Below are positions 2,988 to 34,900 of a DNA stretch of 64,000 nt, in pieces. Below the pieces are notes generated by a model. It was not told the DNA's origin. It made no database searches and worked only from the letters and a program-made list of their open reading frames with translations. Positions within the stretch are counted from its first letter, which is position 1; the number at the start of each line of letters is the position of its first letter. The DNA lies in the IMG/VR virus record IMGVR_UViG_3300027969_000080, positions 1 to 64,000 of that record; one strand, given 5' to 3'. Both the position numbers and the translations under genes were made by a program. Source of the stretch: a virus.

Positions 2988-3140
2988 CATAGTATGAGTT
3001 GAGAAATCAACAGGTTGTTTCAAAAAGCGAGACACGCTAGCGATAGCAAAAAGTCAAGCAGGAAACATTAAATGAGCAGGTCTCAGCCAAATGTTCTTTA
3101 AAATTTTATTTTCGTATAGACCCTGTTTAAGTTACAGGGA

Positions 3141-3224
3141 TCTATATGTAAACATGCTTCAGCGGGATAGACCGTGATGGATAGTTCTGTTTCGTACAGT
3201 ATCCGAAGTGTGTTTTCATATAGA
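3141..3224 (+). ncRNA. Candidate end-paired small RNA (20-position closing helix)
   Basis: Bases 3141-3160 pair with 3205-3224 over twenty positions with one T-T mismatch and two G-U pairs. The enclosed loop holds two small hairpins, CGG...CCG and GGATA/TATCC with CTGT/ACAG. A competing hairpin just upstream (TATAGA-CCCTGT at 3115-3126 with ACAGGG and TCTATA to 3146) uses the same TCTATA strand, so two folds exclude each other. The RNA ends six bases before tRNA-Glu. Size and end-pairing recall Y RNAs, but no family is recognised. Confidence 0.55.
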
Positions 3225-3229
3225 TATTT

Positions 3230-3869: not shown

Positions 3870-3954
3870 GCGACTGTGATGAAATAGGTAGACATAGTAG
3901 ACTTAAAATCTACCGCCGAAAGGTGTACCGGTTCGATTCCGGTCAGTCGTACCA
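3870..3954 (+). tRNA. tRNA-Leu(TAA)
   Basis: Class II. Acceptor GCGACTG/CAGTCGT, A-CCA. Anticodon stem GTAGA/TCTAC, loop CTTAAAA, anticodon TAA; long variable arm CCGCCGAAAGGTG. Confidence 0.93.
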
Positions 3955-3955
3955 T

Positions 3956-4108
3956 AATATAGTGTATTCTTGTCAAAATGTTATAGGGATATAGCCTACC
4001 CTATATATAAAAGAAAGTGCTGCATATATAGATTACTTTGAATAATCTATGAACGAGGATGCACCACAAGGTACGGTGTTATGACATACACTGGGAGTAT
4101 ACTATATT
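3956..4108 (+). ncRNA. Candidate end-paired structured RNA (14-pair helix)
   Basis: Bases 3956-3969 pair with 4095-4108 over fourteen consecutive positions including two G-U pairs. Inside are TATAGGG...CCCTATA and a perfect ATAGATTA/TAATCTAT hairpin with a seven-base loop CTTTGAA, itself inside a TGCAT/ATGCA helix. The loop looks like an anticodon loop (TTG) but there is no T arm. It separates tRNA-Leu from tRNA-Met. Unknown family. Confidence 0.55.
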
Positions 4109-4117
4109 ATGGTAATT

Positions 4118-5557: not shown

Positions 5558-5622
5558 AGGATCGGTTCAGCAAATTTTATACATTTGACTTTTAATCAAA
5601 ACCGTAAAAAACGATCCTGTTA
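5558..5622 (+). ncRNA. Repeat-family structured RNA, copy A
   Basis: AGGATCG (5558-5564) pairs with CGATCCT (5612-5618). The 5' arm continues GTTCAGCAAA and the 3' arm is followed by GTTA, both shared with the copies at 5929, 8588 and 8773. The centre forms TTTGA/TCAAA with loop CTTTTAA, an anticodon-like hairpin. It starts five bases after the tRNA-Ser CCA and ends two bases before tRNA-Trp. Confidence 0.6.
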
Positions 5623-5928: not shown

Positions 5929-5990
5929 AGGATGCTTCCAGCAAATAAAACAAACTTTTATTATCAAAAAAGCAAAACAGCATCCTGTTA
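5929..5990 (+). ncRNA. Repeat-family structured RNA, copy B
   Basis: AGGATGC (5929-5935) pairs with GCATCCT (5980-5986); the 5' arm continues TTCCAGCAAA and GTTA follows the 3' arm. A GCTT...AAGC pairing and a TTTT/AAAA hairpin lie inside. The first 18 bases are identical to copy D at 8773. Flanked by tRNA-Ala and tRNA-Val. Confidence 0.6.
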
Positions 5991-7131: not shown

Positions 7132-7320
7132 ATGAGTAAAGGTAGTAGACCAAGACCATATAGTGTTAGTCAAAAAGAATATCTAGATAAGTTTGATGCA
7201 ATCTTTCGCAAGCCCTCACCTAGAGAGATTGAGGATGCCCAAATAGAGCAAGAAGCATTTGACAAGATAGAAGAAAAGATGTATACTGCAAAGATAGAAG
7301 GAGATAAACAATGCAAGTAA
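7132..7320 (+). CDS. Hypothetical protein, 62 aa
   Basis: Charged, Glu/Lys-rich, probably helical in its second half. The ATG at 7132 follows AAAGGAATATGTT. The frame overlaps the next gene by ten bases, indicating translational coupling to the parvulin gene. No family recognised. Confidence 0.65.
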   Translation: MSKGSRPRPYSVSQKEYLDKFDAIFRKPSPREIEDAQIEQEAFDKIEEKMYTAKIEGDKQCK

Positions 7321-7580
7321 GAGCAAAACATATTTTAGTAGAATCATTGAACACCGCAGTAACTTTAAAAGAAAAGATTGCGATGGGAGAAGATTTTGGT
7401 GCATTAGCAAAACTTCATAGCAAGTGTCCGAGTGGACAGAATGGTGGAGATTTGGGAATGTTTAGTCGTGGACAGATGGTAAAGCCGTTTGAAGATGTTG
7501 CGTTTGGTAGTGATGTTGGCCAAGTAAGTGGCCCAGTACAAACACAATTCGGTTATCATTTGATTCAACGAACAGGATAA
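7311..7580 (+). CDS. Parvulin-type peptidyl-prolyl isomerase
   Basis: An 89-residue protein that is a complete PpiC/rotamase domain and nothing else. Hallmarks are RAKHILVES (residues 4-12), FGALAKLHSKCPSGQNGGDLGMF (about 29-51), MVKPFEDVAF and the C-terminal TQFGYHLIQRTG. Parvulins catalyse cis-trans isomerisation at prolyl bonds. No signal peptide is present, so it should act in the cytoplasm, perhaps on fibre or structural proteins (inference). The start overlaps the upstream gene. Confidence 0.9.
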   Translation: MQVRAKHILVESLNTAVTLKEKIAMGEDFGALAKLHSKCPSGQNGGDLGMFSRGQMVKPFEDVAFGSDVGQVSGPVQTQFGYHLIQRTG

Positions 7581-7755: not shown

Positions 7756-8310
7756 ATGGCACATCAACAACAATTTGATTTTATTCAAACATTGAAAACA
7801 AAATATCCATCACACTTTGCTAATGCAAAGGTGTTAGAGGTAGGTAGTCTCAATATCAATGGGTCAATACGACAATTCTTCACTGAGTGTGATTACTTGG
7901 GAATTGATGTTGGCCCGGGACTTGATGTTGATTTAGTTTGCGAAGGTCAAAAATTATATCATCCAGATGAAACGTATGATACAGTTGGCAGCTGTGAATG
8001 TTTTGAACACAATCCATATTGGGTAGAGACATTTGTCAATATGCATAGGATGACTAAACGTAATGGTCTAGTGTTTATGTCTTGTGCTACAACAGGTAGA
8101 GCCGAACACGGTACTACTCGTACTAGTCCACAAGATAGTCCATTGACAGTTACGAATGGTTGGGAATATTATAAAAACTTAACCGAACAAGATTTTAGAA
8201 AACATATTTTTTACATGGATATTGACAAAATGTTTAGTGAATATGAATTTATAGTGGGTGCGCCGCATCCCGATTTATATTTCTATGGCATTAAAAAGGA
8301 GATAGTATGA
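7756..8310 (+). CDS. Class I SAM-dependent methyltransferase
   Basis: A 184-residue protein. Motif I is VLEVGSLNINGS (residues 26-37), followed by an acidic strand YLGIDVGPGLDVD and by the post-I region YDTVGSCECFEHNPYW, typical of Methyltransf_11/25 enzymes acting on small molecules or sugars. Substrate unknown. The ATG at 7756 is ten bases after tRNA-Gly. It overlaps rpoZ by the ATGA arrangement, so omega translation is coupled to it. Confidence 0.82.
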   Translation: MAHQQQFDFIQTLKTKYPSHFANAKVLEVGSLNINGSIRQFFTECDYLGIDVGPGLDVDLVCEGQKLYHPDETYDTVGSCECFEHNPYWVETFVNMHRMTKRNGLVFMSCATTGRAEHGTTRTSPQDSPLTVTNGWEYYKNLTEQDFRKHIFYMDIDKMFSEYEFIVGAPHPDLYFYGIKKEIV

Positions 8311-8525
8311 CTGAAAGCAGAGCAAGATACACTAGCCAAGAGGCTGTAGAGATGATTGGTAATCGATTTGATATGGTTCTAATCGCTTGCATTAGAGTAA
8401 GGGAACTCAAGCGTGGTCATAGGCCTAAACTTGATAATCCTTTAAAGGCAGGACCCACAGTGGTTGCACTGATGGAAATTGAAAAAGGCCTAGTAGGCCG
8501 AGAATATCTTAAACAAGTAAGATAA
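8307..8525 (+). CDS. rpoZ: RNA polymerase omega subunit homologue
   Basis: A 72-residue protein matching bacterial omega along most of its length: YTSQEAVEMIGNRFDMVLIA (residues 8-27) corresponds to the conserved N-terminal helix block of RpoZ, and TVVALMEIEKGLVG (about 51-64) to the TVxALREIExGL block. Omega binds the C-terminal region of beta-prime and assists assembly and ppGpp response in bacteria. It is shorter than E. coli omega (91 residues), lacking the variable tail. It is cotranslated with the methyltransferase (ATGA overlap). A phage copy could replace or compete with host omega; that is inference. Confidence 0.9.
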   Translation: MTESRARYTSQEAVEMIGNRFDMVLIACIRVRELKRGHRPKLDNPLKAGPTVVALMEIEKGLVGREYLKQVR

Positions 8526-8540
8526 GTTACCCAAAATGTA

Positions 8541-8569
8541 TATACAACAACTGGATGTTGTTGTATAAT
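8541..8569 (+). promoter_or_regulatory. Sigma-70-like promoter before the RNA/Ro60-like unit
   Basis: Perfect TATAAT at 8564-8569 with a poor -35 (TATACA) 17 bases upstream. A perfect inverted repeat CAACAAC-TGGAT-GTTGTTG (8545-8563) fills the spacer and ends at the -10 box, an operator-like position. The weak -35 suggests regulated use. Confidence 0.55.
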
Positions 8570-8587: not shown

Positions 8588-8760
8588 AGGATAGGTTCAG
8601 CAACACTATATTACTATAGGCTGATTTACTTTCTCTGTTATTAACTGGAGCCTGAAAGGGCGTTGAAGGTTGGTAACAATGCGTAAGCAAGGATCGTATT
8701 TCTAGAGGAGTTTCGATAAGTCTCCTCAATAAAAACAAAAAGTAGACAACTATCCTGTTA
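8588..8760 (+). ncRNA. Repeat-family structured RNA, copy C (long form)
   Basis: AGGATAG (8588-8594) pairs with CTATCCT (8750-8756). The 5' arm continues GTTCAGCAA and GTTA follows the 3' arm, as in copies A, B and D. Unlike them, it carries about 110 extra bases with hairpins CTATA-TTAC-TATAG, GGCT...AGCC and GAGGAG...CTCCTC (8705-8727). It begins about 12 bases after the expected transcription start. Confidence 0.6.
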
Positions 8761-8772
8761 TTTTTTATATTT

Positions 8773-8829
8773 AGGATGCTTCCAGCAAATTTTAAACTTT
8801 TATTGAAAAAAAGCAAAAAGCATCCTGTT
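8773..8829 (+). ncRNA. Repeat-family structured RNA, copy D
   Basis: AGGATGC (8773-8779) pairs with GCATCCT (8820-8826), followed by GTT. The 5' arm TTCCAGCAAAT matches copy B; an inner GCTT...AAGC pairing is possible. It ends about 15 bases before the ribosome-binding site of the Ro60-like gene, so it could act in cis on that gene or be released as a small RNA. Confidence 0.6.
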
Positions 8830-8857
8830 GCATAATACACACAGAAAGGAGAAAACT

Positions 8858-10276
8858 ATGCAATTCGCAAACGCAATTTTAAACCAAGAGGCTCGTACCA
8901 CTAATGGTATGAAGGCTCGTCAATCAACCGCTAACGCATGTGTTGATTTGTTCTATAACATCGGTGCAAGCCGTGGTAAGAACATCATCCCGCAATTCAC
9001 TGCGGCTTATGTAGAAAATGCAGACCTAGCATTGCGTATCGTCCAATGGGCGCGTGATGTTCGTGGTGGTGCAGGTGAACGTGAATTGTTCCGTCAAGTC
9101 ATGTTGCACTTGGAAAAGACTAACCCAGCTGATGCTGTCCGTCTTATGTCTAAGGTGCCAGAACTTGGTCGTTTTGACGATTTGCTAGTTTTCCAAACCA
9201 GCGATATGAAGGCTAATGCCTACACTTTGCTTGGTGACTACTTGCGTCAAAGCAACGGTCTTGCTGCTAAGTGGACTCCACGTAAGGGCGTGATCGCGGC
9301 TGAGATCCGTGACTTCTTCGGTATGACTCCAAAGCAATATCGTAAGACTCTTGTTGGTATGACTACTGTCGTTGAAACACAAATGTGTGCAAATGACTGG
9401 GATAACATCAACTACAGTCACGTTCCAAGTGTAGCGCATAGTCGTTACAAGAAGGCTTTCGGTCGTCATGGTACAACTTATGTTGAGTACATCAACAAGT
9501 TGGTCAAGGGTGAGGCAGGTGTGAAGATCAATGCTAACGCAATCTTCCCACACGATGTGTTGAAGGGCCGTATCACTGGATATGGTTCAGCATTAAACTG
9601 GTCTAAGACCGAGTTGGATGCAATCGAAGCACAATGGAATGCATTGCCTAACTACGTTGGTGACGCTAATGTGTTGCCTCTAGTTGACGTTAGTGGCTCT
9701 ATGACCAGCAAGGCTGGCACAAAGGGTGACACTACTTGCCTAGAAATCGCAGTTAGTTTGGGATTGTATTTTGCTGATAAGAACAAGGGTAAGTTCAAGG
9801 ACTGTTTCTTGACTTTCAGCGACAAGCCAAAGTTGATGAACCTCAAGGGGCCTATCAACAAGAAGATTGACCAAATGGTCAGTTCTGATTGGGGCATGAG
9901 TACAAACCTACATGGTGCGTTCACTCAAATCCTTGACACTGCTGTCAAGAACAAGGTTTCACAAGCAGAAATGCCTGAGACACTGATGATTTTCTCTGAC
10001 ATGCAATTTAACGCTTGCGTTAGGTATGATGACAGTGCGATGGAAATGATTGCTCGTAAGTACGCCGAAGCAGGTTACGATTTGCCTAAGGTAGTTTTCT
10101 GGAACTTGAATAGTAGCGGAAACGCTCCAGTCAAGTTCGACAAGGGCGGTACCGCTCTCGTGTCAGGATTCAGTCCAGCAATCGCTGCTAGCGTATTGGG
10201 TGCAGACCCAGATGCATTCAGCCCAGAGGCTATCATGCTCAAGGCTGTGATGAACAGTCGCTACGATTTGATGTAA
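8858..10276 (+). CDS. Ro60-like RNA-binding protein (TROVE/DUF2828-type with vWA domain)
   Basis: A 472-residue protein. Residues 10-110 form the helical-repeat entry of TROVE/DUF2828 proteins (NGMKARQST, LFYNIGASRGK, WARDVRGGAGERELFR, PELGRFDDLL). A von Willebrand A domain follows from about 270, with MIDAS motif DVSGS at 277-281 and IFSDMQF near 374. Ro60 proteins are rings that bind Y RNAs and misfolded RNAs. The ATG at 8858 follows AAAGGAG; the in-frame upstream ATG lies inside RNA copy D and is rejected. Its 5' leader contains structured RNA copies C and D. Codon use is less AT-rich than in neighbours, fitting high expression. Confidence 0.8.
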   Translation: MQFANAILNQEARTTNGMKARQSTANACVDLFYNIGASRGKNIIPQFTAAYVENADLALRIVQWARDVRGGAGERELFRQVMLHLEKTNPADAVRLMSKVPELGRFDDLLVFQTSDMKANAYTLLGDYLRQSNGLAAKWTPRKGVIAAEIRDFFGMTPKQYRKTLVGMTTVVETQMCANDWDNINYSHVPSVAHSRYKKAFGRHGTTYVEYINKLVKGEAGVKINANAIFPHDVLKGRITGYGSALNWSKTELDAIEAQWNALPNYVGDANVLPLVDVSGSMTSKAGTKGDTTCLEIAVSLGLYFADKNKGKFKDCFLTFSDKPKLMNLKGPINKKIDQMVSSDWGMSTNLHGAFTQILDTAVKNKVSQAEMPETLMIFSDMQFNACVRYDDSAMEMIARKYAEAGYDLPKVVFWNLNSSGNAPVKFDKGGTALVSGFSPAIAASVLGADPDAFSPEAIMLKAVMNSRYDLM

Positions 10277-30266: not shown

Positions 30267-31622
30267 TTAATATTCAAATAATACAACACCAGATGCGCCG
30301 GCACCACCGCCTTGAGCGCCAGAACCGCCGCAAGCAGTATCAAAAGGTCCGCCGCTTCCGCCGCCGCCATAAGCGCCGCCGGCGATTGATCTAGCATTGT
30401 CTCCACTACCAGCAGTACTAGCACCTCCACCAAAAATTGAACTGCCACCTGCTCCACCTCTAATATTACCGGTACCACCTTGGTTAATACTTCCAAGAGT
30501 GCCACCTTGCCCTTTTATATTCATATCACCATTGGAACCAATACCGCCACTGCCGGTGGCACTGACAGTTGTAATAGACTGAGTACCTGAAGCAACGCTA
30601 GATGTGCCACCGGCACCTCCAACTGTTACCGCTAATGTATTGCCGGGCGTTAATCCACTAAGCCATTTAATAGCTGCACCACCCCCTCCCCCACCATTGC
30701 CGCCGCCAGTAGTACCATTACAAGCACTACCATTGCCGCCACCGCCCACAATGGTCATTTTGACTTTAGTGACACCTGCAGGTATAGTGAATGTGCCGTT
30801 AGAAGTAAAAACAGTTGAAGATAAGCCACCAGTAGTTCCACCTGATCCAGTAGCACCTGCTGCTCCGGTTGCACCAGAAAATCCAGTTGCACCTGTTGCA
30901 CCGGGACCAGTAGCACCTGTTGTACCTGTTAAACCTGTAGCACCCGTTGCCCCGGTACTACCTATTGTACCAGTAGCACCCGTTGCCCCAGTTGCACCTG
31001 TACTACCAATCGTACCTGTAGCACCCGTTGCTCCAGTAGCGCCTGTAGATCCAATCGTACCTGTTGCTCCGGTAGCACCTGTTGCTCCCGTACTACCAAT
31101 TGTTCCAGTTGCACCAGTAGCACCTGTACTGCCTATAGTACCCGTAGCGCCTGTTGTACCCTGCGCTCCCGCATCAACTATTGTCCACGCAGTAAATGTA
31201 CCAGAACCACCACTATTAGATATAGTAACAGTCATTATTACGCCACCAAATGTAGCAATAGTACCTTCGATAAAATTAGCAGGAGTTGCAGTATTAAATA
31301 CTCTTACACGTTGTCCAACAGTAAATGCACTAGCAGATGCTAATAAGTTAGTAGTTAATGTAAATGTTCCACTTGATGCAATAGTTTGACTACTTGTAGA
31401 TGTTAATCCAAAATACCCTAACCCTGTTGCTCCAGTAGCGCCTGTAGTACCTAAGTAGCCAGTTGCACCTGTAGCACCCGTTGCACCAGTTGTTCCAATA
31501 TAGCCAGTTGCACCTGTAGCACCTAAACCGGTAGCACCAGTTGCGCCGGTAGTACCTTGACTACCAAGGGCTACAGGTTCCCATTGGCTAGTGCCGGTGT
31601 TATAAGTCTTTAATATTGTCAT
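30267..31622 (-). CDS. Collagen-like fibre with glycine-rich tip, 451 aa
   Basis: N-terminal anchor [20 protein letters not shown] matches the two other fibres. Collagen-type triplets run at about residues 17-67 and 152-257, separated by a beta insert. The C-terminal 190 residues start with [21 protein letters not shown] and continue as long polyglycine runs, the gp38/S16-type adhesin fold in which polyglycine helices support receptor-binding loops. Likely receptor-binding fibre. Confidence 0.82.
30850..31570 (-). repeat. Collagen-like triplet repeat tracts
   Basis: Two tracts (30850-31165 and 31420-31570) of Gly-Ala-Thr-type units in the 451-aa fibre. Confidence 0.88.
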
Positions 31623-31631
31623 TTAGTTATG

Positions 31632-31639
31632 TATTTATT
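31632..31639 (-). promoter_or_regulatory. T4-type late promoter box
   Basis: AATAAATA nine bases upstream of the 451-aa fibre ATG; no ribosome-binding site in between. Confidence 0.45.
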
Positions 31640-31886
31640 GAGAATTATTTATGTTCAATGTAGCCTGATATGCTGTAATAACTTCAGGTGTCCATGTTAC
31701 ATTGCAAATAGCTGCAACTTTAGCAGGTTGATTAGTAAGGACTTGGCCCGGTGTTAAACTTGTGCGGTGATAAGTTTGTGCTAATGTATTACCATCTTCT
31801 ATGATGCGAGTTGCCTCACGATAAAGTATAGTGCCGTTCTCAGTAACAGTTATTTGATCTACTACAGTTTCTTTTGTTATTGCCAT
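31635..31886 (-). CDS. Small fibre-cluster protein, 83 aa
   Basis: MAITKETVVDQITVTENGTILYREATRIIEDG... is a common phage small-protein pattern that I have seen linked to tail fibre loci ('YHRTSLTPGQ'); function unassigned. Preceded by AAGGAAAATGCAA. It may assist fibre assembly. Confidence 0.65.
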   Translation of the reverse strand: MAITKETVVDQITVTENGTILYREATRIIEDGNTLAQTYHRTSLTPGQVLTNQPAKVAAICNVTWTPEVITAYQATLNINNSQ

Positions 31887-31909
31887 TGCATTTTCCTTAT
31901 TAGTTAATT

Positions 31910-34900
31910 TTAATCTACCCAGTACGTAGCAGATCCTGAAGCGTATGTTATGGTGGTTGTTTCTTGAGAACCACCAATATAGACATACAACACGGAACGA
32001 TTTCCAGTAAGTGTCATTAAACTTTGAATTCTTGTTGCGGGTCCATTTGTTCCCATATTACCGACAATTGATACTTCACTGTAAGTACCTACGTTAAATG
32101 GCAAACCAGAAACATACTGCGTTGTACCGGCAGCAAGAGAACTTCCACCATCACACTTAAACCAAATAGTTACTTGTTTTCCAATTTTTACATAAGTGCC
32201 ACTTTTAACGGTAAATGTTCCTGCGCCATTATTACTATCCACATTCGGTGTCCAAGTACCTTCTTCATAATCATCTAGCGTGTTAACATCAGTTGATGCA
32301 GATTGAGTAGCAGGGAATTTAATACCCATGCCAGATGTTGGCACAGCACCACCAAGACCTATGCCAAATGTATTAATCCTTACACGTTCAGAAGTGGTGC
32401 TAGCTGCGGTTGTATTGAATGTAATTGGTCCATTATTTTGTAAAGCTAATACGTTTACGCTATTGGCACCTCCCCACGCACTGTATGTTGAACCACCTGC
32501 AGCAATTTCTGCTTGCGGTGATGTTGAGTTATATAGTCTTAGTGACGATGCGCTTGCAGACGCGCCAGTTGATATAGCAACTTGAGTATCACCTGTTGCA
32601 CGATAAACAGCAAATCCTTGCCCTGATAAGTATGAAGATGGTGAACTTGTTCCAATTCCTACATTGCCACCGGCATCGATAAAAACTTTAGGACTATTTG
32701 AAGCAGCAGAAGGAACAGCCATATTCAATATTGGTGTAAACGGACCACCTGCTACTCCACCTGTACTTCCGTTGATTATCTGTCCAATTGAAAATGTACC
32801 AGCAGCACCTAACCCAGAGTCATATATCCATTGCTGCCAAGTTTGATTAGTATTATTTAAATTGTTTAATGCCAATAATGCACCACCGGTTCCTGCAACT
32901 CCAACCCCGTTAATTGGTTGACCACTAAAAGTGCTTGATGTAGTACCTACCAAAAGGCTGCCAGTGGAGTCGATACGCACACGTTCAGTATTACTAATAA
33001 ACCAAGCGTGATATAAACTTCCGATGCTCTGTTGATAAAACAACCCAGCCAAAGCAGATAACAAAATATCATTATTTCCAGAACGATATTTAAGATACCT
33101 ATCAGCGTTTGCGCCTAAGAAATAACTAGAGTTAGATGGTACGTTTACGTCCCCGTTTACATCTAGCTTGTATGCCGGTGAAGTAGTCCCAATCCCTACG
33201 TTACCGCCAACCAATACCATTTGAGCAGTAGTTGGCACTGCGCCAGTGTATGCTGAGAAATTCAATCGTGCATTAGAAGAAGTTGCAGCAGTTGTCCATA
33301 TTCTTGCAGCATCTGTTGAGTTAAAACCGCCAGTGTCATTGACACCAAATTGCAATAATGGAGCAGCAGCACCAACTGATATATCTTGTATAGATATTTT
33401 TGCAGCGCCGGCTGTAGCTGATACTACAGATAACTTTCCATATGTGCTTGGAGAACTTGTGCCAATTCCTACATTGCTACCATCCCATACTAGATTAGCA
33501 CTAGCACCAGCTGATCCGCTATTATTAAATATAATTTGTGTATTACTACCAGCTACTGGACCAGTTGCCCCTATTGCCCCAGTTGCTCCAGTACTACCAA
33601 TCGTACCTGTTGCACCTGTTGCTCCAGTAGATCCAATCGTACCAGTTGCACCTGTTGCTCCGGTAGCACCTGTACTTCCTATTGTACCAGTTGCACCTGT
33701 TGCCCCAGTTGCTCCAGTACTACCAATCGTACCTGTTGCACCTGTTGCGCCATACGATCCTGTTACAGATGTGTCAGCCCAAAGTATACTTGTATTTGCT
33801 GGTGCTGTTGCTTGTGTCACAATACCCGGTACACCTGTTGCACCAGTGGCCCCTGTTGTACCTACATATCCAGTTGCACCTGTTGTTCCTTGTGCGCCAG
33901 TTGCACCCGTTGCGCCAGTTGTACCTACATATCCAGTAGCACCAGTAGCACCTGTTGTTCCTACTACACCTGTTGCACCAGTAGCACCAGTACTACCTAT
34001 ATAACCAGTAGCGCCTGTTGCACCAGTACTACCTATTGTACCAGTGGCACCTGTAGCACCTGATGCTCCTGTATAGCCAGTAGCACCAGTAGCACCTTGA
34101 ATACCTACTGCGCCTGCTAAGTTTACAGACCAGGCAGCATATGTACCTGAACCAGTAAAAGTATTTTTAACAAATAACAATGCACCTGTGCCCGGGGTAT
34201 AACTGATTACAGTTCCATATTGAATGTTACTTACATTATACGCTACAATAATATCTTGTCCGGTAGTATAATCAACATTTAAATCAACTACTGTAATAGT
34301 TTGATTACCAGAATTACCTAAAGTAAATGATGTATTTGATGTAGTAGAATATTTGTCTCCATCTGCACCTGATGCACCTGTACTGCCTATAGTACCCGTA
34401 GCGCCTGTTGCACCTGTACTACCTATAGTACCCGTAGCGCCTGTTGCACCTGTACTACCTATTGTACCTGTTGCTCCTGTAGCGCCAGTTGTTCCTACAA
34501 CACCAGTAGCGCCTGTAGCACCTGTTGTTCCAACATATCCTGTAGCGCCAGTGGCACCAGTTGTTCCTTGAAAGCCTGTAGCGCCAGTACTACCTAATCC
34601 AGTAGCACCAGTAGCACCCGTTGCGCCTGTGCTACCTCGTGTACCAGTTGCACCAGTAGCACCCGTTAGGCCTGTAGCGCCTGCTGATCCTGTAGCAGTA
34701 GTATCAACCCATAGTATGTTTGTATTTGCTGGTGCAGTTGATTGCGCTATTATACCTTGAGCACCTGTAGCACCTGTTGTTCCAATATAACCAGTAGCAC
34801 CTGTTGCTCCTGTACTTCCAATATAACCAGTACTGCCAGTGGCACCTAATCCAGTAGCACCCGTTGCCCCAGTACTACCTATTGTTCCAGTAGCACCAGT

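Follow-up and report, generated by a model that had tools for sequence, protein, structure and literature searches.

An unnamed family of end-paired CAGCAA RNAs accompanies a protein with a predicted Ro60-like fold in phages and bacteria

Does a viral gene with the layout of Ro60, lying directly behind two RNAs with paired ends, belong to a ribonucleoprotein (RNP) of the Ro60/Y RNA type? This question is raised by a locus in the IMG/VR virus record IMGVR_UViG_3300027969_000080. We analysed positions 1 to 64,000 of this record (64,000 bases, referred to as the window); the whole record has 76,075 bases and is possibly incomplete. An earlier note on this DNA had proposed that the gene encodes TROVE/DUF2828-like helices and a vWA domain with an intact MIDAS, and that the RNAs upstream of it and in the adjacent tRNA cluster are Y-RNA-like partners of its product. 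The gene is the following:

8858..10276, plus strand: gene for a Ro-like protein (DUF2828 + DUF7788, PHROG_850), based on family matches, invariant residues and AlphaFold/Foldseek

The open reading frame, which we judge to be real, extends from an ATG at 8858 to the stop at 10276 and encodes 472 aa. Searches with the product revealed the Pfam families DUF2828 (E 1.3e-28) and DUF7788 (E 9.4e-46) and identified it as PHROG_850, 'RNA-binding protein' (E 1.6e-140). Helical repeats occupy residues ~27-262 and the vWA domain residues ~272-472. The MIDAS is intact, and its residues D277, S279, S281, T349 and D381 are invariant in an alignment of 38 homologues. The 472-aa product gave no match to Pfam TROVE (PF05731) at E<=0.1, and phmmer recovered no Ro60 chain with it.

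An AlphaFold model, for which 38 sequences served as input, was confident (pLDDT 86.2, pTM 0.87) and displayed the Ro60 layout of a helical-repeat N-terminal part and a vWA domain. When the model was compared with the PDB by Foldseek, ranks one to seven were all Ro60/TROVE structures (E 1e-8 to 1.5e-6, probability 1.00; TM 0.54-0.59 by query length), a result in favour of the earlier note. Taken together with the invariant MIDAS, these matches indicate that the DUF2828/DUF7788 protein is Ro60-like in its predicted fold, ring closure aside; by sequence it is not a member of Pfam TROVE.

The protein family was detected by tblastn in at least 673 phage records from 36 host or name groups, and by pattern searches in many bacterial genome contigs, mainly of Ruminococcus and other Clostridia. 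It is the same family as the 'Ro-like RNA binding protein'/PHROG_850 of mycobacteriophages, of which JoeDirt gp52 was aligned with the homologues. The Ro-like nature of the protein is thus already an annotation in mycobacteriophages; this annotation covers the protein only, and no description of RNAs belonging to it was found in the searchable literature, where DUF2828 itself is mentioned almost nowhere (plant papers only). The gene is absent from some L2 mycobacteriophages (PMC12714340) and therefore dispensable there. In Serratia phage BF and Listeria phage LP-125 it lies near RNA ligase or RtcB-like genes, which fits an RNA repair neighbourhood.

The window contains four RNAs that share one form. 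A covariance model of their family (R1) was built on 60 short relatives, among them RNAs A, B and D. The RNAs and the elements associated with them are:

5558..5621, plus strand: RNA A, short, in the tRNA cluster between tRNA-Ser and tRNA-Trp (R1 43.6 bits, E 7.1e-9, in seed)
5584..5600, plus strand: anticodon-arm mimic within RNA A, TTTGA-CTTTTAA-TCAAA, with the loop of tRNA-Lys(UUU)
5929..5989, plus strand: RNA B, short, in the tRNA cluster between tRNA-Ala and tRNA-Val (R1 50 bits, E 1.3e-10, in seed)
8541..8569, plus strand: candidate promoter before RNA C, TATACA-17-TATAAT (consensus match only, 10/12)
8588..8759, plus strand: RNA C, medium member (20 aligned, folded homologues)
8773..8829, plus strand: RNA D, short member with CAGCAA motif and 3' GTT (R1 52.9 bits, E 2.2e-11, in seed)

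The two end-paired RNAs that had been placed directly upstream of the protein gene are RNAs C and D. Of the many more suspected in the tRNA cluster, two belong to the same family, namely RNAs A and B, which lie between tRNA genes; other hairpins of the cluster do not. All four RNAs have the form AGGAT-NN-NNN-CAGCAA ... NNATCCTGTT, and exactly four exact copies of AGGATNNNTYCAGCAA occur in the 64 kb, one in each RNA. Their ends are joined by stems between 5558-5564 and 5612-5618 (A), 5929-5936 and 5979-5986 (B), 8588-8594 and 8750-8756 (C) and 8773-8781 and 8818-8826 (D). RNA C scored weakly with R1 (14.4 bits) because of its long insert and was therefore judged by its homologues. These 20 sequences preserve the end stem; their interior is variable except for a GWGAGUUUSGA hairpin, which is conserved, and a second helix that covaries. 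The candidate promoter is one of three promoter-like sites in the 600 bases, where shuffled sequence would be expected to give 1.6. A search of the window with Rfam 15 revealed tRNAs alone at threshold, and RNAs A-D remained unnamed.

Further features were noted around these RNAs. Long inverted repeats (21 nt, 86% and 20 nt, 90% complementary) are present in the tRNA cluster at 3140-3225 and 3950-4114; these hairpins were rejected as family members and are possibly further structured RNAs. A tRNA-Sec-like match at 175-262 stayed below the cut-off (31.2 of 47 bits) and was missed by ARAGORN, and is likely an extra tRNA-like gene. The tRNA cluster also encloses an 89-aa parvulin-type peptidyl-prolyl isomerase (7311-7580; Rotamase, E 1.3e-22). 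A small open reading frame (8307-8525), flanked by a methyltransferase-like gene and RNA C, strongly matches Rpb6/omega-like RNA polymerase subunits (PF01192, E 1.8e-10); its product is a phage-borne omega-like protein.

Outside the window, members of the family are recognised by a stem of at least 7 bp joining the ends, followed by NNN-CAGCAA, a variable interior and a 3' GTT. Because the window and its close relatives had supplied the motif, pairing was assessed in loci held out from that definition. A CAGCAA copy passed if it stood after a 7-base arm and three further bases, with a perfect partner of the arm and then a G within 350 bases. In named phages 36/104 sense copies (34.6%) passed compared to 0/71 antisense copies, and in bacterial contigs 175/498 (35.1%) compared to 12/244 (4.9%); permuted hexamers reached 2.3-3.1%. 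The pairing is specific for the motif, with 40.2% for CAGCAA and 1.5-9.6% for every single-base variant. An alignment of the end stems showed compensatory changes at 7/7 pairs, but its members had been picked for pairing, so this covariation is biased and is no independent evidence; unbiased support comes from the held-out pairing and single-base-variant tests. Searches with Rfam in 17 phage and 18 bacterial loci likewise revealed no family at threshold except tRNA. The end-paired CAGCAA RNAs are a previously unnamed family absent from Rfam 15, in agreement with the earlier suggestion that a new RNA class would be implied.

Upstream of the gene in one set of loci (L001-L080) we observed a third, long size class of the family (about 190-290 nt) with a conserved interior of its own ('ccagaaaataaa', 'aaagacat'). 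The stable RNAs C and D of phage T4 (rnaC, rnaD) and those of T5 (30284-33949 of AY543070) were considered as relatives and rejected, as they lack the CAGCAA end module; these classic phage stable RNAs of tRNA clusters are still unexplained.

In the 500 bases upstream of the DUF2828 gene the density of family RNAs is 2.7 per kb in viral and 3.2 per kb in bacterial loci, and about 0.1 per kb elsewhere. Adjacency of gene and RNAs was seen in phages of Proteobacteria, Firmicutes, Actinobacteria and Cyanobacteria and on bacterial chromosomes. Gene and RNAs are paired in Synechococcus, Rhizobium, Vibrio, Felix-O1-like, Bacillus and Klebsiella phages, and also in Enterococcus, Mycobacterium, Listeria and Staphylococcus phages, so the synteny to be checked according to the earlier note extends across very diverse phages and bacteria. 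The arrangement is not fixed. In JoeDirt, SEP9 and FBKp34 the gene comes first and the RNAs follow downstream; in the window, wV8, KVP40 and BF, RNAs are found in tRNA clusters away from the gene. The distance between gene and RNAs amounts to kilobases or more in KVP40, Serratia BF and Aeh1, and adjacency is therefore common, not universal.

Searches of whole records with R1 gave a match in 19/19 gene-positive phages (best E 1.1e-9 to 9.8e-4, at least 26.6 bits). In 7/7 gene-negative phages the best E was 0.024 or worse (at most 20.3 bits); this small control set comprised T4, SPO1, phiKZ, T5, S-PM2, D29 and K, which are tRNA-bearing or classic phages and for which absence of the gene was shown. 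All 112 R1 matches at the 78 bacterial loci are on the strand of the gene. When five whole bacterial genomes (2-3.7 Mb) were searched, hardly any match fell outside the locus of the gene. A single locus can hold up to seven different RNAs. Synteny and co-occurrence together strongly support a partnership between the Ro-like protein and the CAGCAA RNAs, for no member of which binding or expression data exist.

The variable interiors of the RNAs contain pieces of tRNA. ARAGORN, set to tolerate an insert in the anticodon loop, was run on each RNA sequence after doubling, so that a tRNA spanning the junction is circularly permuted. Such permuted tRNAs were detected in 30/500 unique RNAs from phages and bacteria and in 0/2,500 shuffles and 0/500 reverse complements; 29 of the 30 come from the 113 RNAs with a length of 95-150 nt. 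In the module the T-arm precedes the acceptor 3' strand, a hairpin loop follows, and then come the acceptor 5' strand and the D-arm. In four bacterial RNAs (L233 4434-4533, L208 4537-4639, L209 3343-3437 and L187 4365-4461) an unpermuted tRNA above the Rfam tRNA cut-off was found. In a 244-nt RNA of Vibrio phage BUCT194 (L088 4558-4801) the tRNA halves are split and a copy of TTATTAACAGCAA recurs in the interior, so that it looks like an RNA nested in another RNA or in a tRNA.

Short RNAs display a different piece. A 5-bp hairpin with a 7-nt loop is present in 55 of the 147 non-redundant short RNAs, compared to 15 expected, and in 20/147 the loop is identical to the anticodon loop of a real tRNA from the same loci. 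Shuffled sequences gave a mean of 0.24 such identities (at most two in any of 200 shuffles), and permutation of the loop letters a mean of 0.92 (at most four). The copied anticodons include those for Lys, Arg, Thr, Asn, Cys, Phe, Glu, Leu, Asp and Ile, among others; the majority of short RNAs have no exact anticodon loop. As permuted tRNAs and anticodon arms occur in separate RNAs, members of the family present different tRNA pieces. RNA A is the Lys UUU example of the anticodon-loop class, and its loop recurs in 25 genuine tRNAs from the loci analysed. No clear tRNA piece was seen in RNAs B and D, and ARAGORN on the doubled sequences revealed no permuted tRNA in the four RNAs of the window, which stems from a 76-kb fragment. 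The expected Y-RNA-like tRNA module is thus found in many homologues as a permuted tRNA, whereas within the window the tRNA-like part is the anticodon arm of RNA A.

We compared these features with those of the bacterial Ro60 (Rsr)/YrlA system of Deinococcus and Salmonella (RF02553). Both systems combine a Ro60 fold of helical repeats and vWA domain, predicted in our case, with RNA genes that adjoin the protein gene and RNAs whose ends are paired. YrlA-type Y RNAs with tRNA-like domains are established (PMC8394870), and YrlA has the same permuted module as those 30 of the 500 family RNAs, with the T-arm before the D-arm and a hairpin-closed acceptor. In contrast, the protein of the window belongs to DUF2828/DUF7788 and not to Pfam TROVE, the Rfam consensus of YrlA lacks the end module with the invariant CAGCAA, and many short family RNAs have an anticodon arm, whereas the tRNA-like domain of YrlA is described with D, T and acceptor arms only (PMC8394870). 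The best RF02553 score was 28.5 bits (L054) against a cut-off of 69, and the alignment was limited to the permuted tRNA module of this RNA. For a ROT/TROVE protein of jumbo phages, Iyer et al. (2021, PMC7824862) predicted, in a single sentence and without identifying an RNA, an Ro RNP that repairs RNA and has a tRNA-like partner.

We consider it probable that the DUF2828/DUF7788 system is an RNP of the Ro60/Y RNA type that forms a branch separate from classical Rsr/YrlA, although this reading has no binding or expression data behind it. The protein, with its predicted Ro60 fold, would most likely bind the end module of the RNAs (7-bp stem, adjacent unpaired NNN-CAGCAA and 3' GTT), as inferred from its invariance and from synteny, so that the RNA ends dock on the Ro-like ring. 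The variable interior would protrude and show a tRNA-like piece, either a permuted elbow-plus-acceptor half or a lone anticodon arm, both of which are seen in the sequences. Less certain is the inferred next step, in which the complex would engage tRNA-handling proteins through these pieces. One possibility is that the RNAs act as decoy substrates and shield the tRNA supply of the phage from enzymes that act on tRNA, anticodon nucleases among them; the other is that they tether the complex to a nuclease, which would resemble the Ro60/Y RNA/PNPase machine of Deinococcus. For phages we lean towards the decoy, without direct evidence, because of the anticodon-arm class and because the tRNA-like domain of YrlA has been proposed to be able to compete for an anticodon nuclease (PMC7790460).

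If instead the RNAs were tethers and not decoys, their role would be to attach PNPase or a different nuclease to the Ro-like ring, so that structured RNA is degraded during infection. Such a role is known for Rsr/Y RNA/PNPase in Deinococcus, where the tRNA-like domain of YrlA is the part that binds PNPase (PMC8394870), and the permuted topology is shared with YrlA. Exact anticodon loops of many different tRNAs and up to seven different RNAs per locus would, however, be left unexplained, and we regard this reading as possible but doubtful. In our view a classical Rsr/YrlA system is improbable, in which the gene would merely be a Ro60 orthologue that has diverged and the RNAs would be Y RNAs already known from bacteria and phages. 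The Ro60 fold and the 'Ro-like' annotation in mycobacteriophages would suit it. In 2014 Chen et al. reportedly found that more than 250 species of bacteria and phages have likely Y RNAs close to Ro60, of which at least one in each species carries a tRNA-like domain; some DUF2828 loci may be among them. Against it stand the missing Pfam TROVE match, the low RF02553 scores confined to the tRNA module of a consensus without the CAGCAA end module, and the lack of any Rfam family but tRNA at threshold in the phage and bacterial loci searched.

Two further readings take the RNAs out of any RNP. The position of the majority of RNAs within 500 bases upstream of the gene and on its sense strand would fit cis-acting leaders of the DUF2828 mRNA that serve autoregulation, and not free RNAs. 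We give this little credence, given the RNAs downstream of the gene and in distant tRNA clusters described above and given that free RNAs are marked by pairing of their ends and by tRNA modules; an additional autoregulation is not excluded. Decayed tRNA genes or mobile repeats scattered through tRNA clusters would account for tRNA-like interiors and for positions in or near tRNA arrays, but hardly for one invariant hexamer, for stems that vary in sequence and keep their pairing over phyla, for synteny with one gene, or for tRNA arms that are intact and permuted instead of degenerate, and this origin is scarcely tenable. Our analysis thus supports the reading of the RNAs as Y-RNA-like partners of the protein and extends it beyond the earlier note, with binding and a role in infection remaining inferred.

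The end module of the family closely resembles that of the Class I RNA of dictyostelids (RF01414), a still unexplained RNA class of these slime moulds. Class I RNAs typically measure 42-65 nt and have a short stem joining their ends, a motif ending in UNACAGCAA beside the 5' arm, a conserved 3' CUG(U), a variable interior and many copies. The definition by end stem, adjacent motif of about 11 nt (T3, C6, C9, A10 and A11) and 3' CUGU is fulfilled; RNAs B and D (GCTTCCAGCAA) keep 5/5 motif positions, and A and C have a G at position 3. Differences are a distance of stem and CAGCAA that is one nucleotide longer in the Rfam alignment, and the known amoebal partner, which is the RRM protein Rnp1A. 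The definition also includes a DUSE promoter about 60 nt upstream, a eukaryotic promoter element that one would not expect in a phage. Searches with RF01414 gave 33.8 bits for RNA B (E 4.3e-6 in the 76-kb record), 26.8 bits for RNA D and at most 31.2 bits in named phages, compared to a cut-off of 41.5. In gene-bearing phages the matches are mostly on family RNAs, all below the cut-off, and T4, which has no such gene, yields a chance match of 24.3 bits. Because of these sub-threshold scores and the T4 match, homology is not shown; the RF01414 scores were rejected as insufficient proof, and the likeness is a lead, not a result. Class I RNA has been reported as absent from all other organisms tested (PMC7919456).

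A bolder conjecture, which we think more apt to fail than to hold, is that of a single ancient RNA-protein class in phages, bacteria and amoebae. Its stem-plus-CAGCAA end would dock on a DUF2828-type Ro protein, and its tRNA pieces, elbow half or anticodon arm, would serve as decoys in the fight over tRNA. Class I RNAs would be the eukaryotic branch and should then have a DUF2828-type partner.

DUF2828, labelled a 'domain of unknown function' and present in at least 673 phage records and many gut bacteria, gains a function hypothesis and an RNA partner, which would add a second, independent design of the Ro60/Y RNA particle. The family also reveals RNAs that copy single tRNA anticodon arms, a property that lends itself to direct tests with anticodon nucleases. 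If the likeness to Class I RNA reflects homology, an RNA class so far ascribed to social amoebae alone extends to phages and bacteria, and the missing protein partner of Class I RNA can be sought.
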